From Pontixanthobacter gangjinensis (GTDB lineage: Bacteria > Pseudomonadota > Alphaproteobacteria > Sphingomonadales > Sphingomonadaceae): 64,000 nt of DNA. Positions 32,101-48,526 of the stretch are shown here, piece after piece (positions within the stretch are counted from its first letter, which is position 1; each line of letters starts with the position of its first letter). A program made the translations under genes and the position numbers. Location of the stretch: positions 1,699,772-1,763,771 of the forward strand of contig NZ_WTYS01000001.1 in the NCBI RefSeq assembly GCF_009827545.1, read 5' to 3'. The notes under the pieces are model-generated. The model was not told the origin of the DNA and did no database searches. It saw only the letters and a program-made list of their open reading frames with translations.

Positions 32101-33323
32101 AAGCTGTTGGCCCGATCCCCGCTGGTTATGAGACGAAGGACGGTCAATTGGCAGTCGGCGGCAAGACAGCGCGACAGCTGGTGGAACGAGCCGGACGGAC
32201 CCCTGCCTTCGTCTATTCACGCGATCATTTGACGAATCGGGTCGCGGCGTTGAGAGCAGCAATGCCCAAGCGGCTTGGAATAAATTACGCAATCAAAGCA
32301 AACCCGTTTGCGCCAGTTTTAGGCCATATGGCGGGATTGGTTGACGGGTTTGACATTGCCTCGGGCGGCGAGCTAGCGCTGGCTATTGCGGCGGGCTTGG
32401 ACCCTTCCAAGATAAGTTTTGCTGGACCAGGCAAACGCGATGCCGAATTGGAAGCCGCCATTCGTAAAGGCGTAACGCTCAATCTGGAATCGGAAAACGA
32501 AGCGCGCCGAGCCTTGGCTATTGGCGAGCGACTTCAGTTCGCCCCCAAATTGGCGATCCGTGTTAATCCGAGCTTTGAATTGCGCGGATCGGGTATGAAA
32601 ATGGGTGGCGGAGCAAAGCCGTTCGGGATTGATCAGGACCGTGTGCCGGACCTGGCACGGCAGATATTGGAAAGCGGAGCTGAGTGGCGCGGCCTCCACA
32701 TCTTCACCGGCAGTCAGGCGCTTGGCGCGGACGCATTGATCGAAGCGCAAGCTAATGTGCTTGAGCTGGCCGATCAATTGGCACGCGATATCGGGGGACC
32801 CTTACCTAAACTTAATATGGGTGGCGGTTTCGGCATTCCTTATTTTAATAAGGACAGGCCGGTTGATGTTGCCAGCATCGGTGAGGCATTGGAGGCGCGT
32901 TTTGCGGATTTGCCTGCGTCTTTGGCCGATACCGATCTGTGCATCGAACTTGGCCGTTATCTAGTTGGCGAAGCGGGTGTGTACTTGACTGAAATTGTCG
33001 ACCGGAAGGAGAGTTATGGGGAGACTTTTCTGGTTTGTGATGGCGGCTTGCACCATCAACTGGCTGCATCGGGTAATTTCGGAACAGTAGTTCGGCGCAA
33101 TTACCCTTCTGCAATTGCCACAAAATTTGCCGAGGAAGCTGTCGAAATCGTCGATATTGTAGGGTGCCTGTGCACTCCGCTCGACCGGTTGGCTGATAAA
33201 GCTCATTTGCCCCGTGCAGATGTCGGTGACTTGGTCGCCGTATTTTGCGCTGGAGCCTATGGCGCAACCGCATCGCCATCAGCGTTTCTGGGCCAGGGTC
33301 CAGCTGCGGAGATTCTGATTTAA
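32097..33323 (+). CDS. PLP-dependent decarboxylase, exosortase A system-associated
   Basis: A 408-residue fold-type III enzyme of the diaminopimelate/ornithine decarboxylase family. The PLP lysine is Lys67 in NYAIKANP. The glycine-rich phosphate site is MGGGFGIPY, and GCLCTPLDRL plus FCAGAYG near the end form the other half of the active site. The substrate is not diaminopimelate by context; it is probably an amino acid feeding the locus-specific small molecule. It is translationally coupled to the ligase, and a 195-base gap follows. Confidence 0.92.
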   Translation: MKAVGPIPAGYETKDGQLAVGGKTARQLVERAGRTPAFVYSRDHLTNRVAALRAAMPKRLGINYAIKANPFAPVLGHMAGLVDGFDIASGGELALAIAAGLDPSKISFAGPGKRDAELEAAIRKGVTLNLESENEARRALAIGERLQFAPKLAIRVNPSFELRGSGMKMGGGAKPFGIDQDRVPDLARQILESGAEWRGLHIFTGSQALGADALIEAQANVLELADQLARDIGGPLPKLNMGGGFGIPYFNKDRPVDVASIGEALEARFADLPASLADTDLCIELGRYLVGEAGVYLTEIVDRKESYGETFLVCDGGLHHQLAASGNFGTVVRRNYPSAIATKFAEEAVEIVDIVGCLCTPLDRLADKAHLPRADVGDLVAVFCAGAYGATASPSAFLGQGPAAEILI

Positions 33324-33339
33324 CGTTTTGTTTCAACCT

Positions 33340-33354
33340 GTCCCGCTTTGGGAC
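33340..33354 (+). terminator. Short hairpin after the PLP decarboxylase gene
   Basis: GTCCC-GCTTT-GGGAC forms a 5-base-pair stem 16 bases after the stop codon. It is a weak terminator candidate that would separate the ligase-decarboxylase unit from the export unit. Confidence 0.35.
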
Positions 33355-33518
33355 TTGGTCATACTAAACAACCGGAAACCCGAAAAGGCTAACGGTATAT
33401 TCACCCTTTTTGACCAGTAAGCATTCCTGAACCCGCGGGTGCGTTGGATCAGGTAGCTCCTGCTCTGCGCTTCAAAGCCCGCATAACGTCCCAATTTGAT
33501 GGGAAGGAATGCGCATCG

Positions 33519-34163
33519 ATGCCCAATATTAAGTTCTCAATTTTGCTAGCCGGCAGCGCTTTGGGCGTAATCGCACTTTCGGGCTGCGCGACGACCAGCG
33601 GACCACAGCTTCCGCCAGCAACTTACAGCGCCCTTCAAGAGGGCCCAGGTGAAGAATACATCATCGGGGCCGGAGACGAGCTGACCATCCATGTCTGGCG
33701 CAATCCTGAACTGGGTGCCGAAAAAATTCAGGTTCGTCCTGATGGCCGCATCACCACGCCGCTGGTTACAGATATGCCAGCAGTCGGAAAAACCCCAACA
33801 ATGTTGGCGCAGGACATTCGCCTGCAATTGTCCGAATTTATTGAGGACCCTCTGGTATCAGTAATCGTGACCGAATTTGTCGGTACACCTAATCAGCAAA
33901 TTCGCGTGATCGGCGCGACCGAAAAGCCGGCATCACTGTCGTATCGCGCAAACATGACGTTGCTTGACGCAATGATCGCAGTTGGCGGCCTGTCGGAATT
34001 TGCGTCTGGTAATCGGGCCAAGCTTATCCGTTTCGACAAGTCAAAAGGGCGGCAGGAAGAATATTCCCTGCGCCTCGGCGATCTGCTGAAGAAGGGTGAT
34101 AGCCGCGCCAATGTCCTGCTGATGCCGGGTGATGTAATCATCATCCCGGAAAGCATGTTCTGA
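33519..34163 (+). CDS. Polysaccharide export lipoprotein, XrtA system (Wza/EpsD-like)
   Basis: A 214-residue outer-membrane export protein. The signal peptide ends in the lipobox LSGC (Cys23). A polysaccharide-export domain (YIIGAGDELTIHVWRNPELG) is followed by one SLBB-type domain (IRVIGATEKPASLSY, LLDAMIAVGGLSEFA). It should form the outer-membrane channel for the exopolysaccharide. The ATG at 33519 has GGAAGGA upstream and places the signal peptide correctly. It starts the main rightward EPS unit. Confidence 0.93.
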   Translation: MPNIKFSILLAGSALGVIALSGCATTSGPQLPPATYSALQEGPGEEYIIGAGDELTIHVWRNPELGAEKIQVRPDGRITTPLVTDMPAVGKTPTMLAQDIRLQLSEFIEDPLVSVIVTEFVGTPNQQIRVIGATEKPASLSYRANMTLLDAMIAVGGLSEFASGNRAKLIRFDKSKGRQEEYSLRLGDLLKKGDSRANVLLMPGDVIIIPESMF

Positions 34164-34179
34164 GGGATCGGCTGATACA

Positions 34180-35700
34180 ATGAACGAAGTTTTCGAAGAT
34201 CTCCGAGCAGCGATTTTTTCGGTCTGGCAGCGCCGCTGGCTAGCCTTGGCTGTCGCTTGGGGTGTGTGTCTGTTCGGTTGGTTGGTGGTCGCCATGATCC
34301 CCAATGCCTACGAGTCTCAGGCGCGTATCTATGTGCAACTGGAAGACGTTCTGGCCGAACAAATCGGTATCAAGGGCGGTGCAGAACGCGATATTACTCG
34401 CGTCCGGCAAACACTTTCCAGCGCAGTAAACCTCGAAAAGGTCATTCGTTCGACCAAACTCGGTGAGAAAATCGCTACCCAGCGCGATATGGATAATGCG
34501 ATTACGACGCTGACCAAGAATGTATCAGTCAAAAGTGAGGAAGATAATCTCTTCGAGCTTTCCGCCGAAATTGGCGATGGAGATTTGTCCGATTCAGAGA
34601 ATGCCGAATTGGCGCAAGCTGTTGTCCAAAAACTGATCGATATCTTTCGTGAAGAGAACATAGCAGGCAATCGCGGTGAAGTTGCAGGAACTCTTGTGTT
34701 CCTCGACGAGCAGCTTGAAGCGCGCAAGCGCGAACTCGAAGACGCTGAACAGAAGCGTTTGGCTTTCGAAGCCGAGCATCCCGATCTGATCGGTGGTTCC
34801 GGCACTTTGGCAAACAAGCGAGCGATGATGCGCTCCGACCTGCGTGATGTAGAAGCTGATCTCGCGGCGGCGCAAAGCGCATTGGCCGCGATCAATGGGC
34901 AGCTTGCGGGTACGCCCCAAACGGTTCCTGGAGTGGGTCGTTCAGGCGGAGCGCGGTCTGCATTGGCAGAAGCGCAAGGTCGGCTGGCTTCTTTGCAAGC
35001 GCGGGGTCTAACAGACAGCCACCCTGACATTATCGCGCTCAACAAGCAGATTACATTACTTAAAAGTCAAGCGGCGGGAGAGAATCCCAATGTCGCCGGG
35101 ACGTCAAATCCAGCTTACAGCGCGCTTCAGTCAATCAAAGCTGAACGTCAGGCTAATGTTCAATCGTTGGCATCGCGGCAGGCTGCCCTGCAGTCAGAAC
35201 TTACGGCGCTGATGGCAAGTCAAGCCAGCGAACCAGCTGTTGCCGCGGAGGCAAGCCGGATCAGTCGTGATTATGAAGTGCTCAAGGACAATTATGACGA
35301 ATTGCTACAAGACCGCGAAGAAATGAAGCTGCGCGGTCAGGTGGAGAATGAGCGTAGCTCTTTCAAATTTGAGGTAATCGATCCTCCAACGACACCGCGC
35401 ACACCGTCCGCTCCTAACCGTCCACTACTATTGATCGGCGTGTTGCTAGCTGGCCTTGCAGCAGGTGCTGGAACCGCATTCGCCATTGGCCAACTTCGTT
35501 CGACCTTCGCGACAACAGCCAAGCTTGAGCGTTCGCTCGGCCTCCCGGTTCTCGGCGCGATCTCGCAAACCATGACCGACACCGCACGTCAGGTTCGCAC
35601 CAAACGGATGAGAATGTTCTTCGGCGCCTCTGCCGCGCTTGGGGGCATGTGTGTGGTTCTGTTGGCGGTTGAATTCGTCCAGCGCGGCATGGTGGCTTGA
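34180..35700 (+). CDS. Chain length determinant protein, XrtA system (Wzz/EpsF-like)
   Basis: A 506-residue inner-membrane co-polymerase. It has an N-terminal membrane helix (about residues 21-40) after FEDLRAAIFSVWQRRW, a long periplasmic coiled coil (LEARKRELEDAEQKRLAFEA and later heptads), and a C-terminal helix pair (about 417-437 and 480-500) behind the proline-rich DPPTTPRTPSAPNRP motif typical of this family. It sets polysaccharide length and contacts the kinase encoded next. Confidence 0.93.
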   Translation: MNEVFEDLRAAIFSVWQRRWLALAVAWGVCLFGWLVVAMIPNAYESQARIYVQLEDVLAEQIGIKGGAERDITRVRQTLSSAVNLEKVIRSTKLGEKIATQRDMDNAITTLTKNVSVKSEEDNLFELSAEIGDGDLSDSENAELAQAVVQKLIDIFREENIAGNRGEVAGTLVFLDEQLEARKRELEDAEQKRLAFEAEHPDLIGGSGTLANKRAMMRSDLRDVEADLAAAQSALAAINGQLAGTPQTVPGVGRSGGARSALAEAQGRLASLQARGLTDSHPDIIALNKQITLLKSQAAGENPNVAGTSNPAYSALQSIKAERQANVQSLASRQAALQSELTALMASQASEPAVAAEASRISRDYEVLKDNYDELLQDREEMKLRGQVENERSSFKFEVIDPPTTPRTPSAPNRPLLLIGVLLAGLAAGAGTAFAIGQLRSTFATTAKLERSLGLPVLGAISQTMTDTARQVRTKRMRMFFGASAALGGMCVVLLAVEFVQRGMVA

Positions 35701-35710
35701 GGAACAGGAT

Positions 35711-36778
35711 ATGACAGAACAAAGCAAAATCCCGCTTCCTGGCGACAAAGACTCGAAGGATAGCTCGCTTTTCGAAAGAGCAAGCGGTGCATTTGGCTTC
35801 GACCCATTCAAGGCAAGCCCGATAAAGGGTAAACTGCCCGAGCGGGAACTGAAGCGTGCCAAAGTGCGTCAGGTGGACAAGAAAGCGATCGACGCCGCGG
35901 CTGAAGAGCCAGCCGCTGATACGTCTGCGCGGCGTAGCCTGCCTGCCGTTCCATCGGAATATCAGCCTGAGCAATCTTCTCAGTCCAACCTTCCGTCACC
36001 AGTTCGTCCATCCGAAATAGTAGTCGAGCAGGACTTCGGTGCGGTTGCGCTGGCAGGTAAGAAATTCCCTGTAGATCGCCAACATTTACGCGAACAGGGT
36101 CTGATTGTTCCTGAAGGGACGGTCACAGGTTTGATCGAAGAATTTCGCATTGTGAAACGTCAGTTGATCAAAGCTGCAAAAGAGCGTGGAACCGCAAAAT
36201 CGCGCCGGGTGCTGATCTGTTCACCGCATCCCGGTGAAGGCAAGACTTTCTGCGCGACCAACCTCGCCATCGCGATGGCGGCAGAGCGCGATAGCGAAGT
36301 GCTGCTGATCGACGGAGACTTCGCTAAACCTTCGATCCTGTCGACTTTGGGCCTGCCCAAGGGACCCGGGTTTATGGACTGCCTTGCAGACGATTCGATC
36401 AAGCCAGAGGACATGGTGATTGGCACCGATATCCCCGGACTGTGGGTGCTGCCGTCGGGCAGCCAGACCAATTCAGACAGCGAGTATTTGTCGAGCGTAC
36501 GCACTGGAGAAGTGCTCGACCGGCTGACCATAGGCGCACCAAATCGTATGGTGATTTTCGATACTCCTCCTGCTTTGTCTGCCTCTCCGGCAGCTGAGTT
36601 GGCCAAATATGTCGGGCAAGCCTTGATTGTCGTGCGAGCGGATAAGACCGGACAAAGCGCGCTGGAAGATGCGTGCCAGCTGCTCGCCGCCTGTCCAGAT
36701 ATCAAATTGTTACTCAACGCAGCACAATTCAGCCCGAGCGGAAGAAATTTTGGCTCTTATTATGGATATGGGGAATAA
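35711..36778 (+). CDS. XrtA-associated tyrosine autokinase (CpsD/CapB family)
   Basis: A 355-residue BY-kinase-type ATPase. A 130-residue polar linker precedes the catalytic core. Walker A is PHPGEGKT (residues 172-179), the A' motif is LLIDGDFAKPS, and Walker B is MVIFDTPPAL. The C-terminus ends in a tyrosine cluster (SYYGYGE), the usual autophosphorylation site. It pairs with the chain-length protein just upstream. The ATG at 35711 has GAGGAACAGG before it. Confidence 0.92.
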   Translation: MTEQSKIPLPGDKDSKDSSLFERASGAFGFDPFKASPIKGKLPERELKRAKVRQVDKKAIDAAAEEPAADTSARRSLPAVPSEYQPEQSSQSNLPSPVRPSEIVVEQDFGAVALAGKKFPVDRQHLREQGLIVPEGTVTGLIEEFRIVKRQLIKAAKERGTAKSRRVLICSPHPGEGKTFCATNLAIAMAAERDSEVLLIDGDFAKPSILSTLGLPKGPGFMDCLADDSIKPEDMVIGTDIPGLWVLPSGSQTNSDSEYLSSVRTGEVLDRLTIGAPNRMVIFDTPPALSASPAAELAKYVGQALIVVRADKTGQSALEDACQLLAACPDIKLLLNAAQFSPSGRNFGSYYGYGE

Positions 36779-36784
36779 CCCATC

Positions 36785-38449
36785 ATGAAACGCACACAAA
36801 CCAGCTTCACGGCTTTGGCATTCGCGCTCGCCACTATTGGCATCACAATTCCCGCCTTTGCGCAGGATTCGGACGGCGCTGATGATCAGGGTGAATCCTC
36901 TGGGAGCGGAGGCCGTGCGGTGTCGGTCCAGCCTTATATCGAAGTATCACAAATTGCGATTGCAGAGCTGTCACCTGGCGATGAAGTGACGACATACACC
37001 CAGCTTGCAGCAGGTGTGGAAGCATCAATCACTGGTCGCAACAATGGCGGGTCGGTGTCGCTGAGATATGATAAGAATATCGGTTACGGGGACAACGCGC
37101 TAAATAGTGATACTGTCACAGGTATTGCGCGCGCTTATGCTTCGATTGTGCCGCAAACTTTAACCGTTGATGCAGGCGCCTTGGCGTCTCGCACACGGGT
37201 TGATGGTACAGGCGGTGCGACAGTCAATCCGCTTCTGGGCGACACAGCAGAAAGCCAGATTTATTCTGCCTATGCCGGACCAACTTTGAGCACGAGAGCT
37301 GGCGACGTCGCGGTCAATGCGAATTACCGCATTGGGTACACCCGTGTCGAAACCCCCGATGTGCTGGCCACAGCAGTGGGTGCAGAACCAGTTGATATTT
37401 TCGACGATAGTGTCTCGCAAAGCGCTGCGATCAGCCTTGCCACAAGCCCTGGCGAACCTTTGCCCGTTGGAGTTGGCATTCACGCTGGCTGGAATCAGGA
37501 AGATGTGTCTAATCTCGATCAGCGCGTCCGCGATTTGTACGTCCGCGGCGACGTCCAAGTTCCCGTGACTGATAGTCTCGCGCTGGTCGCCGGCGTGGGA
37601 TACGAAGATGTCGAAGTGTCGAGCCGCGATGCCTTGCGCGATGGTGCAGGTGACCCAGTGATCGGCGCTGACGGGCGGTATGTGACCGACACAAGCCAGC
37701 CGCGCCAATTAGCTTACGACGTATCGGGTTTAATCTGGGATGCAGGCGTGATTTGGCGCCCAAGTTCGCGGACATTATTAGATGCGAGAGTCGGCCGCCG
37801 GTATGATTCGACCAGCTATTATGGAAGCTTCGCCTATGCCCCGAACAAGCGCAGTTCGTTGAACGTATCAGTTTACGATACCATTTCGGGCTTCGGTAAC
37901 CAACTTAACACTGCGCTCGCCAATCTGCCGACAGAGTTTACCGCAACGCGCAATGCGTTGTCTGGCGACCTGAACGGCTGTGTTGCGGGTGAAGAAGGCG
38001 CAGCCTGTCTCGGCGGTGTGCTTGGTTCGGTTCGGTCATCGGTATTTCGTTCGCGCGGTGTTACAGCCAGTTACTCGACGAAGCTGGGACGGCTTTCGAC
38101 CGGTCTTGGCGTAGGCTATGACCGCCGAAAATTCCTGGCAGCCCCGGGTACCGTACTAGGTGCGGCCAACGGCGTGACTGACGAGAGTTACTATGTCGCG
38201 GCCTTCGTTTCTGGGAATGTCGATGCCAATTCGACCTTCACCACAAACGCTTATTACAACTACTTCAGCAGCGGGTTTGACCTTGCCGGCGAGGTTTCTG
38301 CGTTGGGTGCTTCGGCAGCCTATAATCGCAATCTGACATCACGCCTTTCAGCCCGCGCAGCCATCGCGATAGACAGCATCGATAGCGATGTGTCCGACGC
38401 AGACTTCACCGCAGCATCGGCCCTGGTCGGCCTTCGCTACGGCTTCTGA
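36785..38449 (+). CDS. PEP-CTERM system-associated outer-membrane beta-barrel (TIGR03016-like)
   Basis: A 554-residue outer-membrane protein. The signal peptide ends PAFAQ (residues 1-27). The body alternates polar and hydrophobic residues in many short strands and ends in VGLRYGF with a C-terminal phenylalanine, as expected for a porin-like barrel inserted by the Bam machinery. Proteins of this type occur only with exosortase A/EPS loci. An internal cysteine pair (GCVAGEEGAAC) may form a loop disulfide. Confidence 0.85.
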   Translation: MKRTQTSFTALAFALATIGITIPAFAQDSDGADDQGESSGSGGRAVSVQPYIEVSQIAIAELSPGDEVTTYTQLAAGVEASITGRNNGGSVSLRYDKNIGYGDNALNSDTVTGIARAYASIVPQTLTVDAGALASRTRVDGTGGATVNPLLGDTAESQIYSAYAGPTLSTRAGDVAVNANYRIGYTRVETPDVLATAVGAEPVDIFDDSVSQSAAISLATSPGEPLPVGVGIHAGWNQEDVSNLDQRVRDLYVRGDVQVPVTDSLALVAGVGYEDVEVSSRDALRDGAGDPVIGADGRYVTDTSQPRQLAYDVSGLIWDAGVIWRPSSRTLLDARVGRRYDSTSYYGSFAYAPNKRSSLNVSVYDTISGFGNQLNTALANLPTEFTATRNALSGDLNGCVAGEEGAACLGGVLGSVRSSVFRSRGVTASYSTKLGRLSTGLGVGYDRRKFLAAPGTVLGAANGVTDESYYVAAFVSGNVDANSTFTTNAYYNYFSSGFDLAGEVSALGASAAYNRNLTSRLSARAAIAIDSIDSDVSDADFTAASALVGLRYGF

Positions 38450-38466
38450 CCCAAGGGGATAGACAG

Positions 38467-39618
38467 ATGTTTGATGATTTTTATGGACTGACCGGGCGAC
38501 CGTTCCAGCTAACCCCCGATCCGAATTTCTATTTCGAGAGTGCTACCCACCGTAAAGCCCTGTCCTATCTCGGATACGGCATGGCACAGAGTGAAGGCTT
38601 TATCGTTATCACGGGCGAAGTGGGCGCGGGTAAATCGACGCTTGTGGCGCATTTGATGCAAAAGATTGACCGCGAACAAATGACCGTTGGTCAGGTCGTG
38701 ACCAGCAATCTTGACGGCGAAGAACTTGTCCATGTCGTCGCGCAAAGTTTTGGCTTGGAGGTGCAGGGCCATGACAAGGCATCTGCATTGGGCGCGATTG
38801 AGAATTTCTTGCACGAAGAAGCGCGCGAAGGGCGCCGCACTTTGCTGATCGTAGATGAGTCCCAAAACCTGTCTGTTGAGGCGCTGGAAGAACTGCGCAT
38901 GCTGTCCAATTTTCAGCTGGGTTCTCATCCATTGCTGCAATTGTTGTTGCTGGGTCAGCCTGAATTCAAGCAAGTCTTGGCGGAACATTCCGAGCTCGAA
39001 CAGCTTCGCCAGCGTGTCATCGCCGCACATCATCTTCAGTCGATGGAGCCGAGCGAAATCGAACCCTATATCAAGCACCGTCTTGAATGCGTCGGCTGGA
39101 CCGGCAATCCTGATTTTGATCAGCGTGTATTCGCTGGGTTATATGAAGCAACCCGGGGTATCCCACGCCGTGTCAACCAAGTGGTGACCCGTCTGTTGCT
39201 GCTGGGCGCAGTGGAGCAACGCACTCGCATCGACAACGCCATGCTGACCGCTGTGTTAGATGAAATGAAGGGGGATAGCGCGTTTCCCGAGGCAGCACCC
39301 AAGCCAATGGAAAAGCTCGCACCGGCCCCTGCGCCAGGTCCGATCAAGCACGTTGCCGAACCCAGATTGGATCAAGCCAAGCTTGAAGAGATTTTGGCGG
39401 AGCGTGACAACCAGATTGCCGAATTGCAGCAAGCCGTGGTCGAGCTATCCCGCGCGGTTGAAGGCCAGCCGACCGGCAGCAACTTGTCCGAAGATGCATT
39501 GGCGCGGATAGCCAGCTTTGAACGCAAGCTGGAGGAGCAAGAGCGCGGCGTGCGTAATGTGTTGGCGATGCTGATCGAATGGATGGAAAGCGGGCAACAA
39601 TCTCGCGAAGCTGCGTAA
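38467..39618 (+). CDS. XrtA/PEP-CTERM system-associated ATPase (ExeA/GspA-like)
   Basis: A 383-residue AAA-type ATPase. It opens with YGLTGRPFQLTPDPNFYF, has Walker A GEVGAGKST (residues 50-58) and Walker B TLLIVDESQNLS, and ends in a coiled coil (about residues 305-340). It is related to type II secretion ATPase ExeA. Its exact job in EPS export or matrix protein sorting is unknown, though it is a constant member of XrtA loci. Confidence 0.92.
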   Translation: MFDDFYGLTGRPFQLTPDPNFYFESATHRKALSYLGYGMAQSEGFIVITGEVGAGKSTLVAHLMQKIDREQMTVGQVVTSNLDGEELVHVVAQSFGLEVQGHDKASALGAIENFLHEEAREGRRTLLIVDESQNLSVEALEELRMLSNFQLGSHPLLQLLLLGQPEFKQVLAEHSELEQLRQRVIAAHHLQSMEPSEIEPYIKHRLECVGWTGNPDFDQRVFAGLYEATRGIPRRVNQVVTRLLLLGAVEQRTRIDNAMLTAVLDEMKGDSAFPEAAPKPMEKLAPAPAPGPIKHVAEPRLDQAKLEEILAERDNQIAELQQAVVELSRAVEGQPTGSNLSEDALARIASFERKLEEQERGVRNVLAMLIEWMESGQQSREAA

Positions 39619-39628
39619 GGCTGGCGTA

Positions 39629-40531
39629 ATGGAATATTCGCCGATAGAAAAAGATAAGGGCCAGCCCTCCAAGCTCGTCAATGGCCTTTCGGTTGATGTT
39701 GAGGATTGGTTTCAGGTTGGCGCGTTCGAGAATGTCATTGACCGCGATGATTGGGATGGTCTCGCGCTACGTGTCGAGGACAACGTCCTGCGCATCCTCG
39801 ATCTGTTTGCGGCCGCTGACGTAAAGGCCACCTTCTTCACGCTGGGATGGGTCGCTAAACGGCATGGCTCGTTAATGCGCAAGATTGTCGAAGCGGGTCA
39901 TGAACTGGCCAGCCACGGGTACGACCATGCGCGTGTTTTCAATTTTGACCGCAAGGAATTCGGCGAAGACATTCGTATTGCTCGTGAAATATTGGAAGAC
40001 AGTACGGGCGCAAAAATTACTGGATACCGCGCACCAAGCTTCTCGATCGATCAGCGTACACCATGGGCCTATATGGAACTGGCAGAGCAAGGCTATGCCT
40101 ATTCCAGCAGCGTCGCACCCATTGCGCATGACCATTATGGCTGGCGCGAGGCACCTCGCTTTGCGTTCAAGCCGCTTCCATGGTCGGATCTTGTCGAAAT
40201 TCCAGTGACCACAGCCATTCTTGGTGGCCGCCGCGTTGCCGCTGGGGGCGGCGGGTTCTTCCGCGTTTTGCCTTATGCATTTTCTCGCTGGGCGATTCGA
40301 CAGGTCAATCGCGAAGAGCAGCGCCCAGCCGTTTTCTATTTTCATCCATGGGAAATTGATCCGGACCAACCACGCGTGCCCGGTGCGCCGCTGAAATCGC
40401 GTGTGAGGCATTACACCAATTTGAAGAAAATGGCACCGAAGCTAACTGAATTGATCAACGAGTTCGCTTGGGGCCGGATGGATATGCTCGCTCACCGACA
40501 AGCAGAGTTCGCGCAGGAACTGGCAGCATGA
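39629..40531 (+). CDS. XrtA system polysaccharide deacetylase (DUF3473)
   Basis: A 300-residue carbohydrate esterase family 4-like enzyme. NGLSVDVEDWFQVGAFE supplies the catalytic aspartate pair, ELASHGYDHARV the metal histidines and TGYRAPSFSI the arginine loop. The C-terminal FYFHPWEIDPDQPRVP is the DUF3473 part. It probably removes acetyl groups from the growing polysaccharide. No signal peptide is seen, so it would act in the cytoplasm. It overlaps the next gene by ATGA. Confidence 0.92.
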   Translation: MEYSPIEKDKGQPSKLVNGLSVDVEDWFQVGAFENVIDRDDWDGLALRVEDNVLRILDLFAAADVKATFFTLGWVAKRHGSLMRKIVEAGHELASHGYDHARVFNFDRKEFGEDIRIAREILEDSTGAKITGYRAPSFSIDQRTPWAYMELAEQGYAYSSSVAPIAHDHYGWREAPRFAFKPLPWSDLVEIPVTTAILGGRRVAAGGGGFFRVLPYAFSRWAIRQVNREEQRPAVFYFHPWEIDPDQPRVPGAPLKSRVRHYTNLKKMAPKLTELINEFAWGRMDMLAHRQAEFAQELAA

Positions 40532-41592
40532 ACGCTCCCTTCCCCCTAAGCGCCGAAACGGTTTCACAGGTTGATTTGCGTGATCCAAGCGAGATTGCCC
40601 GGATTGAGAGCTTTGTCGCCGAAATGGGCGGCACCGTGTTTCACCGTCCCAAATGGCTGCGCGCCATCGAAAGAGGAACCGGCCAAAAAGCTGCCGGATT
40701 GGTTGCCGAAAAATGCGGTAGTCTCACTGGCTGGTTGCCGCTTAATGAAGTGCATTCGCCCCTATTTGGCAGGGCATTGGTTTCGAGTGGGTTTGCGGTT
40801 GGCGGGGGGCCTTTGGTAAGTAACAGCAAGACGGCCGAACGATTATGCCTCGCCGCCGAAGAATTGGCGATGCGGAAATCTTGCAGCGAAGTAGAATTGC
40901 GCGGCGGAGACGCTCCAGCGCATTGGCGAAGCTGGGAGGACAGCCACTGCGGATTTGTCCGTGATCTGGCGGTCGATGATGAGACTCAGCTAGCCGATAT
41001 CCCCCGGAAGCAACGCGCCGAAATCCGGAAAAGCTTGGCACTCGATTTGGAAGTGAGCGTTGGCAGCGGTGAGAGTGACTGTGCGGCGCATTACGCCGTC
41101 TACTGCGAAAGCGTTCGCAATCTGGGCACGCCAGTGTTTCCGCGCGCTCTATTTGATGCCGTGCTTGATGAATTTGGCGACCACGCCGACATTCTGACAA
41201 TTCGTCATGAAGGTGTTCCAATTGCCAGCGTTTTATCGCTTTATCATGGCGGTGACGTATTGCCTTATTGGGGTGGCGGTATCTTCGCAGCGCGACAGCT
41301 TCGCGCAAATGAACGGATGTATTTCGAACTGATGCTGCACGCTCGCAAAAAGGGATGCGAACGCTTTGACTTTGGCCGTTCCAAGACCGGCAGCGGGCCT
41401 TTCAGTTACAAGAAGAACTGGGGTTTCGAGCCTGAGCCGCTACGCTATTCAAGCTGGACTGCGCCGGGCCAGGCGCCGCGCAATATCAACCCGAATAACG
41501 ATGCCTATTCAGCCAAGATTGATATTTGGAAGCGGCTTCCATTGCCAATTGCCAATTTCGTTGGTCCATTAATTTCCAAGGGGCTGGCATGA
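40528..41592 (+). CDS. FemAB family XrtA/PEP-CTERM system-associated protein
   Basis: A 354-residue GNAT-like protein of the FemAB type. VFHRPKWLRAIERGTGQKAAG near residue 35 and GCERFDFGRSKTGSGPFSYKKNWGFEP near the end fit the family. FemAB proteins add aminoacyl groups to cell-wall or glycan acceptors, so it may decorate the polysaccharide with an amino acid. The ATG at 40528 overlaps the deacetylase stop codon. It overlaps the glycosyltransferase gene by 4 bases. Confidence 0.88.
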   Translation: MNAPFPLSAETVSQVDLRDPSEIARIESFVAEMGGTVFHRPKWLRAIERGTGQKAAGLVAEKCGSLTGWLPLNEVHSPLFGRALVSSGFAVGGGPLVSNSKTAERLCLAAEELAMRKSCSEVELRGGDAPAHWRSWEDSHCGFVRDLAVDDETQLADIPRKQRAEIRKSLALDLEVSVGSGESDCAAHYAVYCESVRNLGTPVFPRALFDAVLDEFGDHADILTIRHEGVPIASVLSLYHGGDVLPYWGGGIFAARQLRANERMYFELMLHARKKGCERFDFGRSKTGSGPFSYKKNWGFEPEPLRYSSWTAPGQAPRNINPNNDAYSAKIDIWKRLPLPIANFVGPLISKGLA

Positions 41593-42824
41593 TGGGAGAT
41601 ATTTTATTCCTCGCGCACCGGATGCCTTTCCCGCCTGATCGCGGTGACAAAATCCGGTCTTACAATTTGCTCAAAGCACTGACTGATTTGGCCCCCGTAC
41701 ACGTAGGTTGTTTCGGAGATACGCCTGGCGATTTTGAACATGAAAGCGAGTTGGCTGCTGTCTGCGCAAGCTACGCATTACTGCCGAGAAAAAAGTCGAT
41801 GGTGCGCGCCGGGGCGGAGGCCGTTTTAAGCGGAAAGCCGGTGAGTTTAACCGCTTTCGAAGATGTGAAGCTTGCTCATTGGGTCGAGCGCACCATCACC
41901 GAAAAGAACATCCAGACCATTTTCGTATTTTCCGGTCAGATGGGGCAATATGTTCCTGCCGATTTTCACGGGCGGGTGATTGTTGATCTGTGCGATGTCG
42001 ATTCAGCCAAGTTCGAAGCCTACGCCAAAGACGGTTCGGCTCCGCGCAGTTGGATTGATGCACGCGAAGGCAAATTGCTTGCGTCAGTCGAAGATCGCTT
42101 GGCCCAGCGCGCTGACCACACTCTGCTTGTCAGCGATGCCGAGGCGGATTTGTTTCGAAGTCGCGTTAAGAACACATTGACTTGCAATATTTCTGTCGTG
42201 CGTAACGGGATCGACACCATCTTTTTTGATCCGCAAAACATCGTCCCGCAGGGCGAGTTCGCCGCGAATAACGGGCCCAATCTCGTATTCACCGGACAGA
42301 TGGATTACGCCCCCAACATAGCGGCTGCCGAACGGGTAATGGATCGGTTGTTGCCAAAAATTCGCGACCGCTTTCCGGGCGCAATTTTCCACTTGGTTGG
42401 CCGCGCTCCGGTCGCACGGCTTACGCGCCGCGATGGCGAGCCTGGCATTCGTGTGTGGGGTGAAGTTCCAGATGTGCGCCCGTTTCTTGCCGCGGCGGAT
42501 TTGGTTGTCGCGCCATTGGAGATCGCCCGCGGAGTGCAAAACAAAGTGCTGGAAGCCATGGCGATGGCGCGCCCTGTGCTGCTGTCTCCAGAGGCTGCTA
42601 CTGGAATTGACGCGACCGACGGCAAGCATTTCGCCATCGGCTGCGACGATGCTGATCTGATTTTAAAGGCGGTTGCGTTACTTGGCGATGGACCAGCATC
42701 GTTGATTATGGCTGCGGCGGCGAGGCGCTACGTGTCAGAACATCAGGGTTGGAGCGCGATGCTTCGGCCTTTGGTCGAGATTTGCGGTTATGACGCAAGC
42801 GAAGCCGACCGCAATGCCGCTTGA
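41589..42824 (+). CDS. TIGR03087-like PEP-CTERM/XrtA glycosyltransferase (GT4)
   Basis: A 411-residue GT-B fold glycosyltransferase. FLAHRMPFPPDRGDKIRSY at the start binds the acceptor side; NLVFTGQMDYAPN and the donor region VAPLEIARGVQNKVLEAMAMARP follow. It is the only clear glycosyltransferase in the locus, which is too few to build a repeat unit. It overlaps xrtA by 35 bases if xrtA starts at 42790. Confidence 0.9.
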   Translation: MMGDILFLAHRMPFPPDRGDKIRSYNLLKALTDLAPVHVGCFGDTPGDFEHESELAAVCASYALLPRKKSMVRAGAEAVLSGKPVSLTAFEDVKLAHWVERTITEKNIQTIFVFSGQMGQYVPADFHGRVIVDLCDVDSAKFEAYAKDGSAPRSWIDAREGKLLASVEDRLAQRADHTLLVSDAEADLFRSRVKNTLTCNISVVRNGIDTIFFDPQNIVPQGEFAANNGPNLVFTGQMDYAPNIAAAERVMDRLLPKIRDRFPGAIFHLVGRAPVARLTRRDGEPGIRVWGEVPDVRPFLAAADLVVAPLEIARGVQNKVLEAMAMARPVLLSPEAATGIDATDGKHFAIGCDDADLILKAVALLGDGPASLIMAAAARRYVSEHQGWSAMLRPLVEICGYDASEADRNAA

Positions 42825-44376
42825 TATTCCGGTCTCTAATGTCCTGGCCGAGCACTTGACTGTTCGCATTCCGCTCCATTGGCGGAATTCATTACTGCGT
42901 CTTGCGTTAGCTGCTGTTGCGATTCTGGCGCTGACCTATCGCGACTGGCTTGCGATGTTTGACCAGTGGTGGAACATTTCCACTTATAACCATATTCTAT
43001 TGGTGCCGCTGATCATAGGCTGGCTGGTTTACGCTCGCCGGGATGGGCTTGCGACGATTAATCCGCAGGCGTGGTGGCCTGGATTGTTGCCCCTCGCCGG
43101 GGCCCTGCTTCTGTGGCTGCTTGGGACGATGGCCGGGGTCAACAGCGCCAGCCAGCTCGGTGCAGTATTGGCCCTACAATCAGCTATTATTGCGGTTCTG
43201 GGCGCGCGTGTTGCAGTCGCGAGCCTGTTCCCGCTCGCGTATATGATCTTCCTTGTGCCGTTTGGTGAGGAATTGGTTCCTTCGCTACAAATGATCACTG
43301 CCAAACTTGTGATCTGGTTGACCGAATGGAGCGGAATTCCCGCCATAATCGATGGCGTGTTTATCGATACTCCAGCCGGCTTGTTCGAAGTGGCTGAGGC
43401 CTGCTCAGGGGTCAAGTTCCTGGTTGCAATGGTCGCGCTTGGTGTACTCGTCGCCTACACATGCTTCAAACAATGGGGACGCCGCGCTGCTTTTATGGCT
43501 GGGGCAATAGCGCTTCCGATTCTGGCCAACGGCGTGCGGGCTTGGGGCACAATCTATATTGCTCAGTCACAGGGTATCGAGTTTGCTGAAGGTTTCGACC
43601 ATGTGTTTTACGGCTGGGTGTTCTTTGCTCTAGTCGTTGGCGCGCTGTTGGCGGTCTCATGGCGCTGGTTTGACCGCGACCCAGAAGATATTGGAGTAGA
43701 TTTCCCGAATATTGATGAGCGCAAGTGGTTCCAAATTGTTGACCGGTGGACAATCGGAATAAACAAGATGGCGGTCAGCGTCTTCGTGCTGCTGGCAAGC
43801 GTCGCAATCTGGAATGCCATGGCTTCCCGGGTTGAAGCTTCGATACCTACAGAAATTGTTATGCCAATGGTCAGTGGCTGGACGCTGGTCGATTACACAC
43901 CGGTCGTGACTTGGAAGCCGAAAGCCAGCGGTGCAGATCATCGTCTGCTTGGCCGCTACCGAAGCGAAAGCGGGCGAGAAGTCGATGTGTTCTTTGCGCT
44001 TTACGCAGCGCAGGAAGAGGGACGGGAAGCTAGCGCATTTGGCGAAGGAGCGTTTGACCCCAGCTCTGATTGGCGTTGGCTCGAACCCGCCAGCACCGTT
44101 CCGTATGCCAAGGCGGATTATCTGCTTGCTTACGGTCAGCACAAGCGTTTGGTTGCCACGACATATAGGGTTGGAGATTTGCTAACTGGGAGCGCGATTA
44201 AGTTGAAGCTCGCCAATATGCGTGACCGCTTGCTACTCAATCCTGCGCCGACAATGATGCTAGTTCTCTCAGCAGAACAGAAAGACGGCGGCGATATGGA
44301 AGCCAGTCTCAATGACTTTAGAAAGTCGATTGGTGATGAAGGCGAATGGATGGACCGCATCGCGGCTCTGCGTTAG
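42790..44376 (+). CDS. xrtA: Exosortase A fused to an EpsI domain
   Basis: A 528-residue polytopic membrane protein. The N-terminal exosortase has about eight helices and the catalytic triad Cys205 (EACSGVKF), Arg250 (ANGVRAWG) and His271 (FDHVFYGW). The C-terminal part from about residue 320 is a periplasmic EpsI-type domain (MVSGWTLVDY, VFFALYAAQEEGRE). It cleaves the PEP-CTERM signal of exported proteins and presumably links them to a cell-surface carrier. The alternative ATG at 42814 removes eight residues and shortens the overlap with the glycosyltransferase gene. Confidence 0.94.
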   Translation: MTQAKPTAMPLDIPVSNVLAEHLTVRIPLHWRNSLLRLALAAVAILALTYRDWLAMFDQWWNISTYNHILLVPLIIGWLVYARRDGLATINPQAWWPGLLPLAGALLLWLLGTMAGVNSASQLGAVLALQSAIIAVLGARVAVASLFPLAYMIFLVPFGEELVPSLQMITAKLVIWLTEWSGIPAIIDGVFIDTPAGLFEVAEACSGVKFLVAMVALGVLVAYTCFKQWGRRAAFMAGAIALPILANGVRAWGTIYIAQSQGIEFAEGFDHVFYGWVFFALVVGALLAVSWRWFDRDPEDIGVDFPNIDERKWFQIVDRWTIGINKMAVSVFVLLASVAIWNAMASRVEASIPTEIVMPMVSGWTLVDYTPVVTWKPKASGADHRLLGRYRSESGREVDVFFALYAAQEEGREASAFGEGAFDPSSDWRWLEPASTVPYAKADYLLAYGQHKRLVATTYRVGDLLTGSAIKLKLANMRDRLLLNPAPTMMLVLSAEQKDGGDMEASLNDFRKSIGDEGEWMDRIAALR

Positions 44377-44385
44377 GGCCGCAAA

Positions 44386-46284
44386 ATGTGCGGAATTGCC
44401 GGATTATTTCACCTTGGGACTCCAAAGCCCGTCGATCCGTTCCGTGTTGAACGGATGTGCGATGCGATGGTTCATCGCGGTCCAGATGGTGCCGGGGTAT
44501 GGACCGATGCTGGAATTGGGCTGGGCCATCGACGTCTTTCGATAATCGATCTCGAAGGCTCACCGCAGCCGATGCATTCAGCCGATGGTGAAACGGTGAT
44601 CGCGTTTAATGGCGAGATTTACAATTTTCGCGAATTGCGCCGCGAGCTTGAAGGACAGGGAGCTCGTTTCCGAACCGACGGGGATACCGAGGTCATCTTG
44701 GCCGCATGGCAGCGTTGGGGCATTGACTGCCTCGACCGGCTGAACGGTATGTTCGCCTTCGCGCTCTACGATAAGCGCAAGAAAGAACTTTTGCTGGCCC
44801 GCGATCGTTTGGGTGTGAAGCCGCTGTTCATGGCTGAATTGAGCGATGGAAGCATGGCTTTTGCGTCTGAATTAAAGGGATTGCTGGCGCATCCTCTGTT
44901 GCGTCGTGAAGCTGATCCCAAGGCAGTCGAAGATTATATGGCTTGGGGCTATGTTCCAGACCATCGCTCGATCTTGAAGGGCGTAGAGAAACTACCAGCA
45001 GGGCATTTTCGTGTGCTGAAACACGGGGCGTCCGCGCCGCCGCCGCGTCAATGGTGGGATATCAGCTTTGCCGATCGACATAAGGGATCGACCAAGGATC
45101 TTTCCGCGGAATTGATGCATCATCTGCGCGAAGGAGTAACTTCACGCATGGTTTCCGATGTACCGCTGGGTGCGTTTCTGTCGGGCGGCGTGGACTCATC
45201 GAGCGTTGTTGCGCTGATGGCGGAAGCCTCCTCGGAACCTGTAAATACATGTTCAATCGGGTTCGATGTCGCTGATCTGGATGAAACCGGATACGCCAAG
45301 CAAGTAGCTGATCTTTTTTCAACCAACCATCACAGCCAGACCGTTCAGCCTGACGATTTCCAAGAAATTGATCGCCTCGTTAGTATGTTCGACGAACCCT
45401 TTGCCGACGCATCCGCTCTGCCGACTTGGCGCGTCTGCCAGTTGGCGCGAGAGCACGTCACCGTGGCGTTGTCAGGTGATGGCGCAGATGAGGCTTTTGC
45501 AGGATACCGTAGGCAGGTTTTCCATGCGCGTGAAGAACAGGCGAGGGCGGTTTTGCCGGCATACTTACGCAAGCCCATTTTTGGCGGATTGGGTGCGATT
45601 TGGCCAAAGGCAGATTGGGCGCCGCGCCATTTTCGCGCCAAGTCCACTTTTCAGTCGTTGGCTGCAGATGGCGAGGTCGGATATGCGCGAGCGCTTTCCG
45701 TGATTCCGTCTGAGCATCGCCACGCGATATTTTCTGAACCAATGCGGCGCGAGCTAGGCGATTATCGCGCCGAACAGCCGCTAATTGACTTGATGAAGCA
45801 TGCACCCGGCAGATCGGGCCTCGACCGCGCTCAATATGCGGATCTCAAATTCTGGATGCCAGGAGATATCCTGACCAAAGTCGATCGCACTAGTATGTCT
45901 GTTAGTCTTGAGGCGCGCGAGCCTCTGCTTGATCACCGTCTAATCGAATTTGCTGCACGATTGCCGCAGAAGGAGAGGATACGCGGGCGGCAGGGAAAGT
46001 GGCTGTTAAAGCATACGATGGAGCGCTACTTACCGGATAATATTCTATACCGGCAGAAGCAGGGCTTCGTGACGCCTATCTCTCAATGGTTTCGCGGGCC
46101 ACTTGCGTCACAGGCAAAGGCAATTGCTGCGAGCGCCGGCTTGGCGAAGACAGGATGGTTCGATTCCAAAGCTTTAACGCGAATTGCAGACGATCACATC
46201 GAAGGACGTACCGATAATGGCAGAATTCTTTGGCAGTTATTGATGCTTCAAAAGTCAATAAAGCATCTCGGCATCGTAGGCTAA
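44386..46284 (+). CDS. XrtA system amidotransferase (asparagine synthase family)
   Basis: A 632-residue protein. The Ntn glutaminase half begins MCGIAGLFH with Cys2 as nucleophile. The synthetase half has the pyrophosphate loop PLGAFLSGGVDSSSV and the FWMPGDILTKVDRTSMS segment. In exosortase A loci it likely amidates a sugar or peptide component rather than making free asparagine. It closes the rightward EPS unit, with a 151-base gap behind it. Confidence 0.92.
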   Translation: MCGIAGLFHLGTPKPVDPFRVERMCDAMVHRGPDGAGVWTDAGIGLGHRRLSIIDLEGSPQPMHSADGETVIAFNGEIYNFRELRRELEGQGARFRTDGDTEVILAAWQRWGIDCLDRLNGMFAFALYDKRKKELLLARDRLGVKPLFMAELSDGSMAFASELKGLLAHPLLRREADPKAVEDYMAWGYVPDHRSILKGVEKLPAGHFRVLKHGASAPPPRQWWDISFADRHKGSTKDLSAELMHHLREGVTSRMVSDVPLGAFLSGGVDSSSVVALMAEASSEPVNTCSIGFDVADLDETGYAKQVADLFSTNHHSQTVQPDDFQEIDRLVSMFDEPFADASALPTWRVCQLAREHVTVALSGDGADEAFAGYRRQVFHAREEQARAVLPAYLRKPIFGGLGAIWPKADWAPRHFRAKSTFQSLAADGEVGYARALSVIPSEHRHAIFSEPMRRELGDYRAEQPLIDLMKHAPGRSGLDRAQYADLKFWMPGDILTKVDRTSMSVSLEAREPLLDHRLIEFAARLPQKERIRGRQGKWLLKHTMERYLPDNILYRQKQGFVTPISQWFRGPLASQAKAIAASAGLAKTGWFDSKALTRIADDHIEGRTDNGRILWQLLMLQKSIKHLGIVG

Positions 46285-46353: not shown

Positions 46354-46435
46354 AAATAATCGTTTGCCAAGCGAGTCAGCACTCATGTAGCCTGCAATTG
46401 ATGAGGGCCGAAACCACCCAAGACAGGGGTCGCAA

Positions 46436-47395
46436 ATGGATCGGGTTGAAGCGGAATTAGTTGAGGGAGCAAGCGGCGTGCACGACGTCGAAAGGTCCGC
46501 AATGGTGTTTGGAAGTGGTGACGAGCATATGCTTGAGAGCCCCGCTACGCTTAATAAAATTCCTGAAGAATTATTGGCATTGAAAGAGCTTGATGTTCTC
46601 TATCAGGAGGATACGCAGGCGCTTTGGACGTATATGCGACCGAAGGGTAGGCCTAGCTTTACACCGCCAATGCTAGGCGATTTTGAAAGTTGGCAGAAGA
46701 ACATCGCCAAGGGCTTTGGCCCGGGTAAGCTCCCTCTCAAATATCTTATTTTAGGCAGTCGTGCTCCTGGTGTGTTTTGTTTTGGTGGCGATTTGACACT
46801 GTTCCAAGACTTGATCCGCAATCAGGACCGCAAAGGTCTTGAGATGTACGGTCACCGATGTTGTAAGATTCTTCATCGTAATATGAATAGCCTGAACCTG
46901 CCAATGCTAACCATCGGCTTGGTCGAAGGCGCGGCGCTGGGCGGGGGTTTCGAGGCTTTGCTGTCGTTTGACCATGTGGTCGCAGAACGCGGGGCGACTT
47001 TCGGATTGCCCGAAATTATGTTCGGTCTGTTCCCTGGCATGGGGGCGCACGCCTTCCTGTATCGGAAGCTCGGAGCAGCCGCTGCCCAGCGGCTCATCCT
47101 GTCAAACGAGACGTTTACTGCCGAGCAGATGTTTGATCTTGGACTGGTCCATCAATTAGCGGAGAATGGTCAGGGCCTGCATGCCTGCCGGGACTACATA
47201 AAGAAATCCGATCGCCGTCATGCGGGACTAGTAAATGCTAGGCGGGCAATGAAAGCTGCGTGGAAGCTGGAATTGGCAGAGCTCACAGAAATTACTGAAT
47301 TGTGGGCAGACGCTGCATTGCAAGTGAGTGAACGCGACCTCAAGGTGATGTGCCGTTTGGCATCAGCTCAGCAGAAACTGGCTGACGCAGCATAA
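46436..47395 (+). CDS. rpfF: RpfF-like crotonase, putative diffusible signal factor synthase
   Basis: A 319-residue crotonase-fold enzyme. RpfF makes the cis-2-unsaturated fatty acid DSF by dehydrating 3-hydroxyacyl-ACP and cleaving the thioester. Both catalytic glutamates of RpfF are visible: Glu173 in ALGGGFEALLSFD and Glu193 in FGLPEIMFGLFPGMGAHAF. CFGGDLTLFQDLIRNQDRKG matches the RpfF oxyanion region, and the spacing of 20 residues between the glutamates also fits. Ordinary enoyl-CoA hydratases lack the LFPGMGA context. An N-terminal extension of about 50 residues is also RpfF-like in length. It is a single gene behind the XrtA locus; no RpfC/RpfG sensor pair is in the window. Confidence 0.87.
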   Translation: MDRVEAELVEGASGVHDVERSAMVFGSGDEHMLESPATLNKIPEELLALKELDVLYQEDTQALWTYMRPKGRPSFTPPMLGDFESWQKNIAKGFGPGKLPLKYLILGSRAPGVFCFGGDLTLFQDLIRNQDRKGLEMYGHRCCKILHRNMNSLNLPMLTIGLVEGAALGGGFEALLSFDHVVAERGATFGLPEIMFGLFPGMGAHAFLYRKLGAAAAQRLILSNETFTAEQMFDLGLVHQLAENGQGLHACRDYIKKSDRRHAGLVNARRAMKAAWKLELAELTEITELWADAALQVSERDLKVMCRLASAQQKLADAA

Positions 47396-47407: not shown

Positions 47408-48526
47408 TTAATCAGCGGTCCCATGGCCCAATGCCATATAATCGGCGCTTTGCATCTCCATCAACCGGCTGACTGTGCGCTCGAATTCGAAAGCGCCATC
47501 GCCGGCTTGATAGAGTTCGCTGGGTTCAGCTTCGGCGGTGACGAACAATTTGACCCGGTATTCATAAAGCGCGTCGATTAAGGTTATGAAGCGGGCTGCT
47601 TCGTTGCGATCATCGGGCCCCATTTGCGGGATGCCGACAATAATTACGGAATGGTAGGTCCGGGCAATTGCCAAATAGTCGCTCGCGCCGCGTGCTTCGC
47701 TGCACAACCGCTTGAAACTGAATACGCCGACACCTTTGAGCGCTCTTGGAACAAACAGTTTTCGCCCGCCGCCCAAATCCAATTCGCCGGATGGGACATT
47801 GTTGCCATCATCTGGATCGTAATCGGTTAAGCGGAAAAATGCTTCACGGACCTGCGCGGTTGCATCGTCTCCCAGCGGGGTGTGCCAGGCCTCGATCCCG
47901 TCGAGCCGGTCTAACCGATAATCGGTAGGGCCGTTGAGCGGGATGATGTCCAGTCGCTCCTCAATCAGATTGATAAATGGCAGGAAATGCTCGCGATTAA
48001 GCCCGTCTTTATACAGGTCTTGCGGAGGGCGATTGGACGTTGTGACGATCGTGACATTTTCATCGAGGATTAGCGCGCGGAAAAGCCGGCTCATAATCAT
48101 CGCATCTGCGCTGTTGTTCACCACCATCTCGTCAAAGGCGAGGCAGCGGAGCCCCTTAGCGATCTGCGCTGCCACCGGCGGGATTGGATCGCCGATTTCC
48201 TTCTTGCGCTCTTCGCGCAGCAATGCGTGAACTTCCAACATAAAAGCATGGAAGTGCACCCGGCGTTTTTCACCGATGGCCAACGCTTCGTGGAACAAAT
48301 CCATCAGCATCGATTTACCGCGGCCAACACCGCCCCACATGTATATTCCGCGTGGCGGCGGGGTTTTCTTGCCGAGCAATTTTCCGAAAAACCCTTGGCC
48401 GTTCTGGCTGACCAATTGCTCGCGCAGCGCTGCCAATTTTCGTGCGGCGCTGGCTTGTTCGGGATCTGGCCGTAATTCACCAGCGGCGACCAGCTGTTCA
48501 TAACGAGAGACTGGTGTTCCCGTCAT
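47408..48526 (-). CDS. zapE: Cell division protein ZapE (AFG1-like ATPase)
   Basis: A 372-residue AAA-type ATPase. Walker A GGVGRGKS is at residues 65-72, followed by MDLFHEAL; CLAFDEMVVNNSADAMI carries Walker B, and the arginine-containing TTSNRPPQDLYKDGLNR follows. ZapE interacts with FtsZ during late division. It overlaps the thioesterase gene by 4 bases (ATGA) and is the last gene of a leftward sdhB-paaI-zapE unit. Its stop lies 12 bases from the convergent rpfF-like stop. Confidence 0.94.
   Translation of the reverse strand: MTGTPVSRYEQLVAAGELRPDPEQASAARKLAALREQLVSQNGQGFFGKLLGKKTPPPRGIYMWGGVGRGKSMLMDLFHEALAIGEKRRVHFHAFMLEVHALLREERKKEIGDPIPPVAAQIAKGLRCLAFDEMVVNNSADAMIMSRLFRALILDENVTIVTTSNRPPQDLYKDGLNREHFLPFINLIEERLDIIPLNGPTDYRLDRLDGIEAWHTPLGDDATAQVREAFFRLTDYDPDDGNNVPSGELDLGGGRKLFVPRALKGVGVFSFKRLCSEARGASDYLAIARTYHSVIIVGIPQMGPDDRNEAARFITLIDALYEYRVKLFVTAEAEPSELYQAGDGAFEFERTVSRLMEMQSADYMALGHGTAD

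Follow-up and report, generated by a model that had tools for sequence, protein, structure and literature searches.

A DSF-type synthase gene behind the exosortase A locus of Pontixanthobacter gangjinensis and a candidate membrane GGDEF-EAL receptor encoded elsewhere in the genome

The gene that follows the exosortase A (XrtA) exopolysaccharide (EPS) locus in the window, i.e. the whole stretch of 64,000 nucleotides of P. gangjinensis DNA that was analysed, encodes a DSF-type synthase of the RpfF family. DSF is a fatty-acid signal by which bacteria sense crowding. The signal of this synthase is probably sensed by a protein with five to six transmembrane (TM) helices followed by GGDEF and EAL domains, which would alter c-di-GMP. 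We consider rather probable the explanation as a whole, i.e. a DSF-type synthase with its own promoter, a signal sensed by the unlinked TM-GGDEF-EAL protein altering c-di-GMP, and one relocation of the synthase gene. It also seems, on balance, a tenable proposal that DSF is here perceived by a third core route, where the place of RpfC/RpfG and of RpfR in Sphingomonadales would be taken by a 5–6-TM sensor joined to GGDEF-EAL (in Methylobacterium, by a longer form of it), the synthase having moved once to the EPS locus in the XrtA-bearing clade and the receptor being unlinked there. The features concerned are collected in Table 1.

Table 1. Features of the window and the candidate receptor gene (positions are those of the window unless a contig is given)
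Feature	Position	Strand	Details
Rest of XrtA/EPS locus	30562..42824	+	acyl-CoA ligase, decarboxylase, export protein, chain-length determinant, ATPase, deacetylase, FemAB, glycosyltransferase
Exosortase A (XrtA), EpsI-type C-terminal domain	42790..44376	+	TIGR03109, TIGR02914
XrtA/PEP-CTERM system amidotransferase, final EPS-locus gene	44386..46284	+	TIGR03108, 965.7 bits (cut-off 816.9)
Promoter-like block	46354..46393	+	AAATAATCGTTTGCCAAGCGAGTC, then TA about 18 bases past TTGCCA; 19 upstream regions aligned
DSF-type synthase, RpfF family, crotonase fold	46436..47395	+	319 aa, ATG start; catalytic Glu173 and Glu193
zapE, convergent housekeeping neighbour of the synthase	47408..48526	-	NF040713
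Candidate receptor, same genome, outside the window	G000:C1:1526371-1528353	-	660 aa; 5–6 TM helices, then GGDEF and EAL

Results

Family assignment of the synthase

The genome holding the window is a single contig of 2.89 Mb. The open reading frame of the synthase, the gap of 151 bp between the end of the amidotransferase gene and its start, and its position behind a full XrtA/EPS locus were as described in the original prediction. The nearest named relatives of the protein were those of Pontixanthobacter luteolus, P. rizhaonensis and P. aquaemixtae, with 72–74% identity.

Glu173 and Glu193, originally pointed out as the catalytic pair of RpfF, aligned with the two RpfF glutamates at chain positions 157 and 177 of 3m6m, which we take to be E141 and E161 of Xcc RpfF (an offset of 16), and both were invariant across 24 relatives. 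The motifs CFGGDL and LFPGMGA, which had been named together with them, were found at residues 115–120 and 198–204, and most of their residues were invariant in the same relatives. The glutamate pair is also common to enoyl-CoA hydratases (ECHs) and by itself does not tell RpfF from ECH. It is thus a necessary rather than a specific feature, and the separation of both families rests on profile, tree and structure.

Concerning the profiles, the best NCBIfam match of the synthase was NF006452 (346.9 bits, cut-off 177), a model labelled 'crotonase/enoyl-CoA hydratase', while the ECH models gave less than 80 bits. The proven RpfFs of Xcc and B. cenocepacia (structures, fragments) also fit NF006452, with 394–395 bits, and the loci found with this model include one of xanthomonad-like layout (L140), where rpfF converges on the genes of a membrane protein and of an HD-GYP protein, and pairs of the RpfR type (L142 and L143). 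With the RpfF equivalog NF053515 the synthase scored 190.7 bits, below the curated cut-off of 550. The proven RpfF fragment of B. cenocepacia likewise fell under that cut-off (183 bits), so the model looks narrow, and the synthase is placed, judging from sequence, in the wider RpfF clade rather than as a member of NF053515.

A sequence search of the PDB also grouped the synthase with proven RpfFs, apart from ECHs, and a tree of 63 rows built by a quick method set all the RpfF-type rows apart from ECHs (support 99 by that method). The AlphaFold model of the synthase had a mean pLDDT of 86, residues 1–31 being disordered. When this model was used in a fold search, the top matches were five RpfF entries (Z 34.9–36.9, rmsd 1.6–1.8), and the best ECH gave Z 28.6. 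Profile, tree and predicted structure thus support that the protein groups with the proven DSF synthases and not with ECHs, and the original call of a DSF-type synthase stands.

The XrtA/EPS locus and the conservation of its neighbourhood

The XrtA/PEP-CTERM EPS locus (30562–46284) was complete, its exosortase A, amidotransferase, FemAB, deacetylase, ATPase, chain-length and export proteins exceeding the curated cut-offs; the TIGR03016 outer membrane protein was under its cut-off. The conservation of the neighbourhood was surveyed in 200 genomes, drawn once and evenly from the GTDB family, where the gene calls in relatives were mechanical picks of open reading frames. The synthase had an ortholog in 74 of these genomes and the XrtA amidotransferase was present in 132. 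The adjacency to the XrtA locus, which the original prediction had proposed to survey, was indeed conserved in 43 of the 74 orthologs, located directly downstream of the amidotransferase on the same strand (gap 143–294 bp). Another five were 3–5 kb from it, 19 were far from it or on another contig, and for seven the genome gave no amidotransferase match, although two of these orthologs (L055 and L056) still lie beside other XrtA-locus genes. The 51 XrtA-type orthologs among the 74 are referred to as class A. In the named loci, 51 out of 80 synthases directly adjoined the amidotransferase, and zapE was convergent downstream of the synthase in 48 of these 51. On the other hand, amidotransferase and zapE abutted in some genomes that lack the synthase (L070 and L071), the amidotransferase occurred without synthase in 65 of its 132 genomes, and the synthase without amidotransferase in seven. 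Since the region is conserved anyway, with zapE being equally steady, adjacency alone shows neither a function nor a control of EPS.

In some relatives (L058–L060) a cassette of about 5 kb separates amidotransferase and synthase, and several Novosphingobium loci show gaps of about that size. The cassette was considered as a set of EPS genes and rejected as such, its proteins reading as an exporter of the HlyD/ABC-2 type. A gene that reads as pirin-like was seen between synthase and zapE in some relatives (L055:5242-5940, L058:3194-3904 and L065:5221-5919).

Upstream region of the synthase gene

Ahead of the synthase, XrtA-linked relatives strongly conserve a block containing TTTGCCAA. No second close match to it was found in the window, EPS genes included, or around the candidate receptor gene, and an element shared with the EPS operon or with the receptor gene was rejected on that basis. 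A sigma-70 scan gave no plus-strand match at the block, which therefore rests on conservation only, and an RNA element was rejected as the intergenic gap had no Rfam match. It seems reasonable to interpret the block as a putative promoter, and the synthase, lying between the XrtA/EPS locus and zapE, is probably transcribed from it.

Candidate receptor

None of the window's open reading frames of at least 100 aa contains a GGDEF, EAL, HD-GYP or histidine-kinase motif. The original statement that the window has no sensor gene was therefore correct for frames of that size, but the genome holds a strong candidate elsewhere, which is of neither the RpfC/RpfG nor the RpfR kind. Its recognition comes from relatives: gene pairing in them can reveal a receptor that is unlinked in the genome of interest. 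In 17 genomes with the same synthase type away from XrtA (class B), a membrane GGDEF-EAL gene (about 650 aa) was convergent with the synthase in every case, and the same pairing was seen in eight named loci, Methylobacterium haplocladii among them. A query built from the aligned TM regions of class B found one gene in the window's genome (E 3.9e-49), unlinked, 218 kb off on the same chromosome. In the XrtA clade generally, synthase and candidate receptor genes lie far apart.

The candidate receptor has GGDEF and EAL domains at residues 231–385 and 405–635 (Pfam), both intact, with seven catalytic motifs present. Its N-terminus matched no Pfam family, no PAS domain was found in it, and it contains five hydrophobic segments (TM counts are approximate); the predicted model of a relative's TM domain has six helices of TM length, the last one continuing into a long exit helix. 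A fold search with the latter gave as top match the Pseudomonas protein ImcA (8wcn; Z 10.5, rmsd 5.3, 189 aligned), which did not clearly stand out from helical proteins that are unrelated. Homology to the TM domain of RpfC was tried and rejected, as none was detectable by profile comparison with small alignments, which is weak evidence. The protein has no kinase domain, in difference to the RpfC architecture (5-TM, histidine kinase, REC, HPt), and the FI and PAS domains that precede GGDEF-EAL in RpfR were not found. Likewise, searches of the whole genome gave no match to the RpfC-type TM domain and, with the RpfR-type N-terminus, no FI match and a weak match of the PAS part elsewhere (E 0.001). 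So, neither RpfC nor RpfR was found as a receptor of this genome, and the RpfR-type receptor that the original prediction had suggested looking for did not appear. Since no relation to the RpfC TM domain was detectable and there is no PAS domain, DSF binding by the TM domain of the candidate would be without precedent. In some class B genomes a second gene of the TM-GGDEF-EAL type adjoins the receptor gene (L040, L041, L240 and L241).

Co-occurrence of synthase and receptor

Counting the receptor as present at E 6e-26 or better, it occurred in 67 of the 68 survey genomes whose synthase is of class A or B, the sole miss being a genome that is 77% complete (G136), and in none of the six genomes of class C, where RpfF is paired with an RpfC-type kinase. 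The association of synthase and receptor had a Fisher p of 4e-37, a figure inflated by shared ancestry because the statistics ignore phylogeny. It held alike among genomes with and without the amidotransferase, and it was far tighter than the association of synthase and amidotransferase. The RpfC-type TM domain was found in exactly the six class C genomes plus G043; in the latter (G043:C1:255690-256247) the survey gave no RpfF-family match. In nine mixed genera, synthase and receptor were jointly missing in members of four, and five had members that retain the receptor and lack the synthase.

Another observation concerns the 15 genomes with receptor and without synthase (G010, G014, G045, G048, G065, G079, G103, G122, G127, G131, G153, G165, G166, G188 and G199). 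They could carry orphan receptors that listen to neighbours, and they fit such orphan sensing, but an independent role of the receptor too. The sensor region of XrtA-type receptors had a median of 137.9 bits without synthase versus 170.4 with it (phylogeny ignored), and lower scores where the synthase is missing are as relaxed constraint would give.

Discussion

In the 63-row tree the XrtA-linked synthases formed one clade (quick-method support 99), grouped with four receptor-paired rows (96). The simplest reading of these sequences would be an ancestral convergent pair of synthase and receptor, from which the synthase relocated once, to the XrtA/zapE site; there it would now stand beside the EPS locus, with the receptor gene kept elsewhere. 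As for the mechanism, the synthase is predicted to make a cis-2-unsaturated fatty acid from 3-hydroxyacyl-ACP, and the unlinked membrane GGDEF-EAL protein would be the one that senses it. The fatty acid would partition into membranes and act on the TM domain of the receptor, and this may shift the balance of GGDEF and EAL and thereby change cellular c-di-GMP. In this scheme the family of the synthase, the layouts of the genes, their co-occurrence and the catalytic motifs are observed, and the signal chemistry, the binding of the ligand, and the direction and targets of the c-di-GMP response are what we infer; RpfR could serve, by analogy, as its nearest model.

If the pair is real, a large alphaproteobacterial group gains fatty-acid quorum sensing joined directly to c-di-GMP, with a sensor domain named for testing, and if the proposed perception is correct, it is a third core layout besides RpfC/RpfG and RpfR. 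A search of the literature, covering PMC papers with open licence, found nothing on DSF signalling in Sphingomonadales and no paper linking this type of membrane c-di-GMP enzyme to DSF.

Other explanations have to be weighed against this one. The location of the synthase suggests that the signal could control the adjoining XrtA EPS export in a density-dependent manner, as originally inferred, the synthase being a functional part of the EPS locus, which is compatible with the preferred explanation. The direct adjacency in 43 of 74 orthologs, with five more at 3–5 kb, and in 51 of 80 named loci speaks for it, as does the activation of EPS production by DSF signalling in Xanthomonas (PMC4504480). 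However, the zapE side is equally conserved, so that regional synteny can account for the adjacency; besides, a promoter-like block of its own precedes the synthase and does not recur at the EPS genes, the amidotransferase occurs alone in 65 genomes and the synthase alone in seven, and the exporter cassette splits them in some relatives. EPS control is a plausible but tentative proposal and not a likely one. It is much less likely that the crotonase takes part in biosynthesis within the XrtA pathway and makes no signal, its substrate being, for instance, an acyl group on ACP or CoA with which the polysaccharide is decorated. The acyl-CoA ligase of the neighbouring locus would fit this, and acyl-ACP is the substrate of RpfF enzymes (PMC4504480), but orthologs away from XrtA lie beside a signalling gene, some of them in genomes without amidotransferase match, and the synthase keeps company far more with the receptor than with the amidotransferase.

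It is also conceivable, if unlikely, that the synthase is of DSF type but has a receptor other than the membrane GGDEF-EAL protein, or a signal that acts mainly on other species. The pairing would then reflect shared ancestry, or regulation of the synthase by the GGDEF-EAL protein. The 15 genomes with receptor alone and the unlinked genes of the XrtA clade agree with this, and the example of RpfR, whose FI domain holds RpfF in check (PMC6361424), shows that a pairing can be a means of controlling the enzyme. Against it are the convergent pairing in 17 of 17 cases, the co-occurrence in 67 of 68 and a distribution complementary to that of the RpfC-type sensor. Least probable is an ordinary ECH of fatty-acid degradation. 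The crotonase fold, the Pfam ECH_1 match and the label of the best NCBIfam model would favour it, but this model includes proven RpfFs, tree and structure set the protein apart from ECHs, and the remaining crotonases of the genome match the synthase far more weakly (E 1e-10 or worse); the ECH reading was thus rejected on profile, tree and predicted structure.

A 2015 review (PMC4504480) distinguishes two core routes of DSF signalling, one by RpfC/RpfG and one by RpfR, besides accessory kinases, and gives a convergent order for rpfF-rpfC and rpfF-rpfR. In RpfR, BDSF binding activates the EAL phosphodiesterase (PMC6361424). The preferred explanation shares with the RpfF-RpfR system of Burkholderia and Cronobacter (BDSF; PAS-GGDEF-EAL receptor) a synthase of the RpfF clade, a convergent GGDEF-EAL gene in relatives, and the union of sensing and c-di-GMP turnover in one protein. 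It differs in the 5–6-TM N-terminus of the candidate, where FI and PAS were not detected, and in the window's clade also in the unlinked receptor gene and the synthase at the XrtA locus. With the RpfF-RpfC-RpfG system of Xanthomonas (DSF; 5-TM hybrid kinase, HD-GYP regulator) it has in common the RpfF-clade synthase, a membrane sensor, the c-di-GMP output and the convergent order in relatives. However, the window's genome is without an RpfC-type TM domain, the candidate joins TM and c-di-GMP domains with no phosphorelay, and the TM domains are not detectably related.

Within the same bacterial family, the class C pairs (six genomes, L048–L053) also have synthase and sensor genes in convergent order, but the synthase is only 38–44% identical, the sensor is an RpfC-like kinase and the TM-GGDEF-EAL receptor is missing. 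From their motifs, these genomes also have a response-regulator-type GGDEF-EAL protein (REC-PAS-GGDEF-EAL) in place of an HD-GYP RpfG. Outside the family, M. haplocladii has a synthase of 57% identity whose convergent neighbour codes for a longer protein with the same kind of TM region (L146 and L239); from its sequence, this protein may be read as having a PAS domain ahead of GGDEF-EAL. Of 240 genomes sampled from the class, 17 had a member of the synthase family and three had the receptor TM domain; the synthase must thus have other partners in most alphaproteobacterial relatives. At the level of the phylum, several NF006452 matches of one group (f38; e.g., in G242, G208 and G403) have one in-frame stop codon inside the matched stretch.
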